From Mucilaginibacter sp. MD40 (GTDB lineage: Bacteria; Bacteroidota; Bacteroidia; Sphingobacteriales; Sphingobacteriaceae): a stretch of DNA of 64,000 nucleotides. A program made the position numbers and the translations under genes. Positions 45,648 through 47,944 of this stretch are shown in pieces. The notes below the pieces were generated by a model. The model was not told the DNA's origin and made no database searches. It saw nothing but the letters and a program-made list of their open reading frames with translations. Numbering within the stretch: the first letter of the stretch is position 1; each line of letters opens with the position of its first letter. The stretch spans positions 1,010,071 to 1,074,070 of the forward strand of contig NZ_NRSW01000001.1 of assembly GCF_002288635.1 (NCBI RefSeq). The letters run 5' to 3'.

Positions 45648-45723
45648 AACAAAAAGCCTCTCAGATTTCTGTAAGAGGCATTTTGTTTTTTCGGTAGAGG
45701 GAGCGGGACTCGAACCTACGACC
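45648..45723. repeat. Left direct repeat: displaced tRNA-fMet 3' end plus terminator
   Basis: This 76-base stretch matches 47824-47900 with about 90% identity. It carries a hairpin (GCCTCT...AGAGGC) and 29 bases of tRNA 3' sequence including T-loop TTCGAGT (minus strand) without the rest of the tRNA. Compared with the intact copy, one T-stem pair and an acceptor base are changed, so it is a decaying fragment, as expected for an attachment-site remnant. Confidence 0.8.
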
Positions 45724-45736
45724 ATTTACCACTTCA

Positions 45737-45870
45737 TCAGGCACTTAGAAATCTTTTTAATCACTATATACCTTATTGTGTACCGGGATGCTATTAATGA
45801 AAGTGCCATCTTCACTGAAATCCTAAAAAGTAACGAAGACAAGTAGCTTGCAAAACTCAACTCAGAAAAA
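45737..45870 (+). pseudogene. Possible decayed coding stretch
   Basis: A plus-strand frame reads LIVYRDAINESAIFTEILK, then NEDK, then an in-frame TAG at about 45847 and LAKLNSEKVKIS beyond it. Amino-acid composition is protein-like, but there is no start codon and no family is recognised. It may be the 3' remnant of a gene once carried by the island. Low confidence. Confidence 0.2.
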
Positions 45871-46036
45871 GTTAAGATTTCTTGTTTATAGGGGTAGACA
45901 AAATCCTGAATTGGAAACTTTAATAGGAACATTTTACAGTAAGGACATACGCCCTTTGATAATATCTGTCCAAATGATTATTGTTGATTCGGTGTGCCCA
46001 ACATTGTCATATCAATGATTTTTGATAATACCGGAG

Positions 46037-46076
46037 GCCCTACTATTCAATCGACGACATGATTGAATAGCAGGGC
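46037..46076. repeat. Long inverted repeat inside the island
   Basis: CTATTCAATC (46043-46052) and GATTGAATAG (46061-46070) are perfect reverse complements with an 8-base centre; GCCCT and AGGGC extend the arms beyond one mismatch. No T-run follows, so it is not a plain terminator. Confidence 0.7.
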
Positions 46077-46253
46077 GATTCTATCCCATTTAAACATACC
46101 ATAACACATCTCCTTGCCCAAAATCAGTCTAATAATAATGATATACATATAAAATTAATTAAACATGGCTTCAATTTCTGGTTATAAGTTGCTTGAGATA
46201 ATACAACTATAGCTTAATAGTTATAATTTTAATTAGCGTTAAGAAAATATTCA

Positions 46254-46261
46254 TAGATTTG
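46254..46261 (+). promoter_or_regulatory. -7 promoter box (TAGATTTG) of the MACPF gene
   Basis: Exact TAnnTTTG match 92 bases before the ATG. The -33 position holds only T-rich sequence. A leader hairpin, ACGTGCAATT/AATTGCGTGT with two G-U pairs at 46287-46309, lies between this box and the gene. Confidence 0.5.
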
Positions 46262-46352
46262 CCGCACAAATAGGATAAAACACTACACGTGCAATTAATA
46301 ATTGCGTGTTTGTGTGATATTCTAATAATAAAATCTAAATCAATCACAAAAA

Positions 46353-47774
46353 ATGAAAAAAGTATTACTTATTATTCCGCTCATCGGAATGTTGTGGTCA
46401 TGCAAAAAAAATGACCAACTCTCAAAATCAATTTCCATTACAAAGCAGCCCCGCTTAGAGACCAAAGCAGCACGCGACGGTGTATATGATGTGCTAGGAT
46501 ATGGCTACAATGTTGGTGGCTCAAGCCCATATGCTGTGACAAGTGCGACAACGCTTCCCGTAATCAACGTGGCGGCATTTGTTGCTGCGCAGCCAACTTT
46601 GTATACATACAATCAAAACACGGTTAATAGCACTAAGTTTGCATATGGCGAAAATGCGGAGAGTTATTCTAAAAAGTTCACAGCTAACCTAAACGTCACT
46701 GGTGGTTTTGCACTTTTTAAGGGAAATCTAACGTCGAGTTACAGTTCTTCAGATGCCTGGAATTCAAAATATATGTATGGGAGCTTTGAACAGATCGTTC
46801 AGGAAAAGAATTTAAGGATGACCAATGATCCTAGTATCTTACGGAATTACTTATCACCAGGATTTGTGAGTGCCATTGCGAATAGTACGCCGCAGTCCAT
46901 CATTGAAAATTTTGGGCCGTACGTTCTTACAAATATTAATTTAGGAGCAAAGCTTGTAGTTATGTATCAGGGCCAAACTACTGCTGACAACAGAAGCGAA
47001 ACCGTTGCAGCATCGCTCAACGTTAGTGTTTCGTCATTTATCAGCGTCGATGCAAAAATCACCAATGATAATACGGCAAGCAAAAATGCTTCTAATACCT
47101 ATTTGCATTATGCAAGTTATGGAGGTGATCCGACCAAGAGTCTCACTCCGACAACAATCTCTTGGAGCCCTTCAACTGCACCGCTTGATTATGGTAACTG
47201 GATTAACAGCGTGACCCCCGCAAATGCCGAGTTCATTGGCATTGGTGATAATGGTCTCGTTGCAATTTGGGATTTGATTGCCGATCCGGCAAAAGCACAA
47301 GCGGTACATGACTATTATACTAACGTATATGTTCCAGCTAATCAAGTTTCTACGATATGGCAAACAGCTACATTGTATAGATGCTTAAACACTTCAACTG
47401 GTGATTATTTATTAACGACGTCACCATCTGAAGTGTCTGGTCAAAGCAATTGGAGAGTTGAGGGTGCACTGGGAAAAGTATTTGTTGACGAAGGACATCC
47501 TAATACAGCACAGTTTTTCAGATGGTTTTTGAAAAATGGCGGTACCCACTTTTTTACTGCCGATCCAAACGAAATCCCAAGTAATGCAACTTTTGAGGGA
47601 CGTTGCGGATATATCACCACAACCGCTACTGCAGGATATAATGCTATATATCGGTATTCGAAAAAGACCGGAAACGGAGCTCATTTTTACTCTAATAGCT
47701 ATAATGAACTTGGTGCGGGAAATGGTACCTGGAAGTACGACGGCATCGCCGGTTATTTGCAACCAGCAAATTAA
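46353..47774 (+). CDS. MACPF-type pore-forming lipoprotein with three-repeat C-terminal domain
   Basis: A 473-residue lipoprotein (lipobox MLWSCKKND). Residues 40-55 read DGVYDVLGYGYNVGGSS, as at the start of Bacteroidota MACPF proteins. The MACPF core signature appears as ENFGPYVLTNINLGAKL (canonical YGTH...LGG; here Thr-His is replaced by Pro-Tyr), flanked by beta-hairpin regions rich in Ser, Thr and Asn. The last 140 residues hold three similar units: LYRCLNTSTGDYLLTT, FFRWFLKNGGTHFFTA and IYRYSKKTGNGAHFYS, each followed by W/F-x-x-E/D-G, resembling DUF5648 and suggesting a trefoil-like ligand-binding tail. Secreted MACPF lipoproteins of Bacteroidales (BSAPs) kill related strains; that role here is inferred. 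Base composition is more AT-rich than the neighbours. Confidence 0.8.
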   Translation: MKKVLLIIPLIGMLWSCKKNDQLSKSISITKQPRLETKAARDGVYDVLGYGYNVGGSSPYAVTSATTLPVINVAAFVAAQPTLYTYNQNTVNSTKFAYGENAESYSKKFTANLNVTGGFALFKGNLTSSYSSSDAWNSKYMYGSFEQIVQEKNLRMTNDPSILRNYLSPGFVSAIANSTPQSIIENFGPYVLTNINLGAKLVVMYQGQTTADNRSETVAASLNVSVSSFISVDAKITNDNTASKNASNTYLHYASYGGDPTKSLTPTTISWSPSTAPLDYGNWINSVTPANAEFIGIGDNGLVAIWDLIADPAKAQAVHDYYTNVYVPANQVSTIWQTATLYRCLNTSTGDYLLTTSPSEVSGQSNWRVEGALGKVFVDEGHPNTAQFFRWFLKNGGTHFFTADPNEIPSNATFEGRCGYITTTATAGYNAIYRYSKKTGNGAHFYSNSYNELGAGNGTWKYDGIAGYLQPAN

Positions 47775-47784
47775 TTTTGACTTT

Positions 47785-47818
47785 AAAGAGAGTGGCCTCA
47801 TTGATTACTCTCTTTTTT
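47785..47818 (+). terminator. Terminator of the MACPF gene
   Basis: AAAGAGAGT (47785-47793) pairs with ACTCTCTTT (47807-47815), followed by TTT. Confidence 0.75.
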
Positions 47819-47823
47819 ATGTA

Positions 47824-47900
47824 AACAAAAAAGCCTCTCAGATTTCTCTAAGAGGCTTTTTTGTTTTCAGGTAGCGGGAGCAGGACTCGAACCTACGACC
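47824..47900. repeat. Right direct repeat: terminator and 3' end of intact tRNA-fMet
   Basis: This 77-base stretch is the counterpart of 45648-45723. It continues into the complete initiator tRNA, so it is the functional copy. The differences are scattered substitutions and single-base indels. Confidence 0.8.
47827..47862 (-). terminator. Terminator of tRNA-fMet
   Basis: AAAAAAGCCTCT (47827-47838) and AGAGGCTTTTTT (47851-47862) form a perfect 12-bp stem with T-runs on both strands. It can end both the tRNA and the MACPF transcript. Confidence 0.85.
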
Positions 47901-47944
47901 TTCGGGTTATGAGCCCGACGAGCTACCAACTGCTCCATCCCGCA
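47872..47944 (-). tRNA. Initiator tRNA-fMet (CAT)
   Basis: On the minus strand the 73 bases fold as a cloverleaf with anticodon CAT. Initiator marks are present: three G-C pairs in the anticodon stem (GGG...CCC) and an unpaired first acceptor position (T1 opposite T72). D-arm GAGC...GCTC and T-loop TTCGAGT are regular. CCA is not encoded (the next bases are CCT). Promoter at 48038-48069, terminator at 47827. Its 3' end is the target of the adjacent repeat. Confidence 0.95.

Follow-up and report, generated by a model that had tools for sequence, protein, structure and literature searches.

An integrase-less MACPF gene island at the initiator tRNA gene of Mucilaginibacter sp. MD40, a probable derivative of tyrosine-integrase elements

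Tyrosine integrases that target tRNA genes act on elements in which attP includes a duplicate of the tRNA 3′ end, so that the tRNA remains whole after integration (Islander, PMC4383910). In streptococci, CIMEs have kept att sites and cargo and lost the integrase and transfer genes; these units span 1.2–13 kb and are very common at some 3′ tRNA ends (PMC7563491). In the Methylophilaceae, additive flexible islands are marked by repeated occurrences of the final 20 bp of a tRNA gene, and tRNA-Met borders a tycheposon (PMC10872708). No paper on tRNA-fMet islands in Mucilaginibacter was found among the best matches of a non-exhaustive literature search. Here we describe an insert at this tRNA gene in Mucilaginibacter sp. 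MD40 (genome size 4.29 Mb), located in a 64-kb stretch of DNA that was analysed as a whole and is referred to as the window.

The insertion target is an intact initiator tRNA gene, tRNA-fMet, with anticodon CAT (47870–47944, minus strand; ARAGORN), in which three G–C pairs can be read directly at the base of the anticodon stem. It lies 147 bp from era, a distance of about 145 bp in most congener loci sampled. Its terminator (47823–47866, minus strand) is a strong hairpin belonging to the right copy of a direct repeat, and the tRNA together with this hairpin has a z of −6.6. To the left of the tRNA gene lie a MACPF gene, a displaced copy of the repeat and a DUF6377 (SusR-like) gene. The two repeat copies (45651–45723 and 47828–47900) align without gaps over 73 nt at 89 % identity, with a spacing of 2177; the right copy consists of the 3′ part of the intact tRNA-Met(CAT) plus its terminator, and the left of the last 31 nt of the tRNA (45693–45723, minus strand; the left att core) plus a decaying terminator copy (45649–45692, minus strand) with a weaker hairpin than that on the right. 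The length of the repeat, together with the comparison with empty sites given below, excludes a chance repeat. The insert itself (45724–47823) is about 2.1–2.2 kb in size, holds one complete gene and has a GC content of 38.4 %, compared with 44.2 % for the window, in which 2.1 % of 2.1-kb stretches are as GC-poor. No tyrosine integrase was found inside it, and all 13 tyrosine-recombinase matches of the MD40 genome lie elsewhere. A first-pass annotation, made from the sequence alone, had described long, near-90 % direct repeats containing the tRNA-fMet 3′ end and terminator, and between them an AT-rich, one-gene segment free of integrase; all of these features were borne out.

The single gene (46353–47774, plus strand) encodes a 473-aa lipoprotein with the lipobox ..LWSC, in which Pfam recognizes MACPF (E-value 9e-6) and DUF5648 (8e-24); its sequence relatives in the PDB are Mpf2Ba1 (5e-8), the MACPF protein 3kk7 and GNIP 6fbm. 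The product is probably a pore-forming or surface-binding secreted protein. As had been noted previously, the gene has a promoter box and a terminator of its own, the former a Bacteroidetes-type −7 promoter-like sequence, TAnnTTTG (46254–46261, plus strand), found by pattern search as a match to the consensus alone, and the latter a hairpin with a T-run read directly from the sequence (47788–47818, plus strand). This terminator lies 5 bp from that of the tRNA, at the place occupied by right-arm repeats in integrase-bearing relatives. When the proteins of 100 relatives were searched, no MACPF homologue of more than 43 % identity turned up outside MD40, and in the short stretches fetched around homologues elsewhere, the nearest (43 %) included, no tRNA-fMet tail was present. 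Viral contigs likewise gave no match to the exact 30-base tRNA 3′ pattern or to the MACPF protein.

Comparison with relatives, using one genome per species, identified the same site without the insert. A first set of relatives, which did not include the genome termed G134, returned unrelated left flanks only; G134 was found by searching the left flank genus-wide. In this genome (93–94 % identical) the counterparts of 32057–45723 and 47824–54130 are contiguous, overlapping by one repeat copy, and no insert is present; it is the very relative that the first-pass annotation had proposed to look for, with tRNA-fMet and the left flank but without 45724–47823. In G100 (80–89 % identity) we observed tRNA-fMet with a single repeat copy, no MACPF gene and, to the left, ∼600 bp of different sequence, whilst in G108 the tRNA-fMet gene is single and 19 kb of sequence contains no tail. 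Since the MACPF gene is absent from both G134 and G100 and each has only one repeat, the MACPF unit is a real presence/absence insertion polymorphism between related genomes. Taking G100 and G108 together, absence is likely the older state. Within the MD40/G134 pair, G134 may have lost the unit or may never have had it, because its left flank runs into terminator letters that match the right copy. Measured against the G134 copy over 77 positions, the left repeat of MD40 shows 8 differences and the right repeat 2. Ahead of its tRNA part the displaced copy ends in TTTTTTCGG, as does the copy of G108 and, almost, that of G100, whereas the tRNA-side copy has TTTTCAGG, an arrangement that fits the left copy being the original one and the right copy being element-borne.

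These relatives also bear on the idea that a second, tandem tRNA-fMet gene once stood at the left repeat and decayed to the present remnant, the MACPF gene having arrived between the copies. Two tRNA-fMet genes ∼200 bp apart do occur in many congeners, and in some a second copy lies 1.4–17 kb away. The close relatives G134, G100 and G108, however, have a single copy, and the left copy of MD40 is a 3′ fragment followed by an element left end, as in the genome G129, with no decayed 5′ half. On the basis of these three genomes and the left-end match described below, the idea was rejected as scarcely credible.

Tyrosine integrases near tRNA-fMet were screened for with phmmer, tblastn and HMM in flanks of up to 20 kb from about 95 congeners, and were found only in G155, where the gene is truncated, and in G060 (M. 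hurinus), where it is cut by the contig end. With the N-terminus of the M. hurinus integrase as a query, full-length integrases were recovered from G187 (85 % identical to it) and G129 (80 %), both beside tRNA-fMet and both composed of Arm-DNA-bind_5, SAM-like and Phage_integrase domains. At a threshold of 80 % identity across this entire N-terminus (188 aa), such integrases are present in 3 of 150 genus genomes (G060, G187 and G129), in every case beside tRNA-fMet. The far end of the element is a displaced tRNA-fMet fragment, at 19.2 kb in G187 and at 17.1 kb in G129, and the G129 fragment stops at the same tRNA base (..CTACGACC|A) as that of MD40. The tyrosine recombinase that had been predicted, with an element ending in the same 3′ tRNA sequence, thus exists in G187 and G129, and the gene also lies beside tRNA-fMet in G060. 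In MD40 the protein closest to the tRNA-fMet integrase is 36 % identical and located elsewhere in the genome. Additionally, the G187 element (L284) encodes DndA/C/D/E-like phosphorothioation proteins (Dnd-type). The G129 spacer between integrase and tRNA was considered as a cassette and rejected; it reads as an IS3-type insertion, judged by reading its proteins. In G162 (L286, 8040–8546), a fragment related to the tRNA-fMet integrase adjoins tRNA-Arg(CCT) and has the same TGTGTACC repeats; the arrangement suggests a relative with another target.

In G187, G129 and G104 alike, the displaced fragment is bordered on its inner side by two TGTGTACC-like arm repeats and then GGCACTCYATTA. When a profile was built from the left ends of these three, its best match in the window was at 45732–45801 (plus strand; E 0.002, the next being 5.3), directly beside the left repeat, and its score of 11.1 bits compares with a maximum of 1.2 in 2000 shuffles of that stretch (0 of 2000 reached the score). 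The element left end thus located in MD40 has two arm-type repeats, TATATACC (45765–45772) and TGTGTACC (45777–45784), and then CTATTAATGA (45791–45800); its similarity to the family spans 70 bp only, whilst among the other three members ∼300 bp is common in pairs with G104. At the integrase-side end, G187, G129, G060, G155 and G104 have further TGTGTACC/TGTACC repeats. No such right-arm repeats were found in MD40, where the right-end profile matches the tRNA terminator only. A search of its own genome for the arm-pair pattern gave no match, and no TGTGTACC was found within ∼1.5 kb of its own integrases. As the left-end profile match is present and the right-end profile is without an arm match, MD40 keeps one end of the element and appears to have lost the integrase and right arm. 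Compared with the autonomous tRNA-fMet elements, the unit therefore has the left end with arm repeats and lacks the integrase and the right-arm repeats beside the tRNA. It has in common with the elements of G187, G129 and the G060 end the same tRNA and the left-end arm repeats, and with G129 also the fragment end point; the elements of G187 and G129, however, are 17–19 kb long and possess an integrase, that of G187 also phosphorothioation-type defence genes, whereas the MD40 unit has neither integrase nor right arm. The insertion at the tRNA-fMet 3′ end put forward in the first-pass annotation is consequently supported both by the empty sites in G134 and G100 and by a family left end after the displaced fragment; its reading as a functional cargo-only unit is not, the integrase-side arm region being absent.

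We consider it probable that the segment derives, with loss of the integrase, from a family of tyrosine-integrase elements whose insertion site in Mucilaginibacter is the 3′ part of the initiator tRNA gene. The attP of an ancestral element, with its spare tRNA 3′ end and terminator, would have recombined with the tRNA-fMet gene, an integration that would have preserved the whole tRNA and pushed the old 3′ end and terminator leftward. A later internal deletion or replacement would then have taken out the right arm along with the integrase and the rest of the backbone genes, leaving as a remnant the left end, one cargo gene (the MACPF lipoprotein) and two core repeats. Several observations count against this explanation: the left-end match, although statistically clear, is short; no intermediate with both MACPF gene and integrase was found; the divergence of the left repeat from G134 (8 of 77) exceeds that expected if it had been displaced only after the MD40/G134 split; and G134 may itself be a site after loss. 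We infer the descent by deletion, the exact crossover point and the cargo function of the unit. In its present form it is probably immobile, as we infer, unless a related element lands beside it.

Across the genus, displaced tRNA-fMet 3′ fragments are found downstream of the tRNA at about 20 of 97 loci, most of them with small cargo and no integrase. The probe comprised 17 bases of the tRNA-fMet 3′ end and was run on downstream flanks with full tRNA genes masked; tails were counted only if the match included tRNA sequence, and terminator-only matches were left out, such hairpins being common. With ≤ 2 mismatches, 18 matches were direct and 0 inverted, and with ≤ 3 mismatches 22 were direct and 2 inverted, in 20 loci; an independent scan gave 20 versus 1. 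G187 and G129 joined the set of loci for their integrases, and the figure without them is slightly lower. For most displaced fragments the distance to the tRNA is 0.1–4.6 kb, and the intervening sequence contains no integrase. The earlier suggestion that a cargo-only unit at an initiator tRNA would be unusual is not supported, as many congeners have such insertions, and the other cargo between the same kind of repeats that it had advised looking for was found in congeners (e.g. DarT-DarG, RHS-type).

A single crossover between 75-bp homologies would likewise yield direct repeats, and a DNA molecule, circular or linear, that ended in tRNA-fMet sequence might have been integrated by homologous recombination over ∼75 bp with no site-specific recombinase. 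This is very unlikely, given that displaced fragments start at the tRNA 3′ end, downstream and in direct orientation (the 18 plus versus 0 minus above), that arm-type sites are present at a fitting distance, and that integrase-bearing elements use the same site. The scarcity of integrases between fragment and tRNA, on the other hand, favours a true cargo-only cassette, whose att sites and cargo move as a unit by means of an integrase supplied in trans from another element, in a satellite-like manner. It is further favoured by the DarT-DarG pairs at tRNA-fMet in G031, G107 and G116, which G031's close relatives lack, and by G104, in which an integrase-free 16.4-kb island carries an RHS-type gene, retains both arm ends and is bounded by 55-bp repeats of 100 % identity. 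For MD40 we nevertheless regard it as unlikely: the unit lacks the right-arm repeats still present in G104 and in the autonomous elements, its left repeat is in decay, and a second copy of the MACPF cargo unit was not found, the closest homologue of the protein (43 % identical) having no tRNA-fMet tail in the short stretch examined around it. The G104 island is the best candidate for mobilisation in trans and the MD40 unit a weaker one. A wider scheme, in which tRNA-fMet anchors an integron-like system without a local integrase and small cargo-only cassettes (such as MACPF, DarT-DarG and RHS), with a tRNA 3′ end and terminator as the boundary of each, are inserted by integrases supplied in trans and stack in arrays, appears doubtful to us.

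A number of individual loci at this hotspot are of interest in their own right. Amongst the related genomes G121, G013 and G031, the sequence next to tRNA-fMet changes stepwise, with the DarT-DarG pair in G031 only; the displaced terminator of G031 matches the tRNA-side terminator of G013, and hence the displaced copy is the original one. This toxin–antitoxin pair lies directly beside tRNA-fMet in G031 (L064, 16413–18326), G107 (L159) and G116 (L147), and in G031, whose close relatives G013 and G121 are without it, the DarG stop codon falls inside the displaced tRNA half. The RHS/SpvB-type gene of the G104 island (L169, oriented copy 3023–19437) specifies 2123 aa and is accompanied by a short N6-methylase-like gene. 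In G004 (L053, oriented copy 12356–12664), two odd tRNA-fMet-like units stand in tandem beside the real tRNA-fMet, with an altered T arm, extra hairpins and a terminator each. Finally, G014 (L065, 8109–14490) and G176 (L135, 11911–19398) have arrays of tRNA-fMet tail and terminator copies separating one- or two-gene segments, several of the tails reading GGAC and then AAAnnTCGAAC-like letters.

With descent from integrase-bearing tRNA-fMet elements as the preferred reading, an integrase-free, one-gene island is now tied to a concrete integrase family, and it illustrates the degree of shrinkage at which such islands stay recognisable. Standard island finders that require an integrase would miss most insertions at the tRNA-fMet hotspot, whilst G104, integrase-free and with both ends intact, makes mobilisation in trans directly testable.

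Like Islander-type tDNA islands (PMC4383910), the MD40 locus combines an intact tRNA and a direct, downstream displaced 3′ fragment with foreign cargo and empty sites in relatives; tRNA and fragment have the side and orientation of a tDNA island and an unoccupied site exists in G134 and G100, but there is no internal tyrosine integrase. Islander demands an integrase gene and rejects candidates such as this one that have none, and the unit is barely above its 2-kb length filter (PMC4383910). Its likeness to CIMEs (PMC7563491) consists in integrase absent and cargo present: recombination and transfer genes are missing, the MACPF gene being the one intact gene, and core repeats on both sides and the left arm remain. 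It differs in having lost the right arm region and in having no tandem helper in the genome, and whilst CIMEs derive from ICE/IME, its parent family is assigned to neither. The congener loci with several fragments resemble additive flexible islands with recurring tRNA ends, although the Methylophilaceae case concerns a different phylum and tRNA, and tycheposons carry xerD and are much larger (PMC10872708). The ssrA islands of Dehalococcoides likewise recur at a single RNA gene, and 15 lack an integration module, but they use serine recombinases and ssrA where the Mucilaginibacter family uses a tyrosine integrase and tRNA-fMet (PMC3146451). The MD40 unit works as tDNA islands do, and its present state resembles that of a CIME, a decayed island or the module-less ssrA islands.
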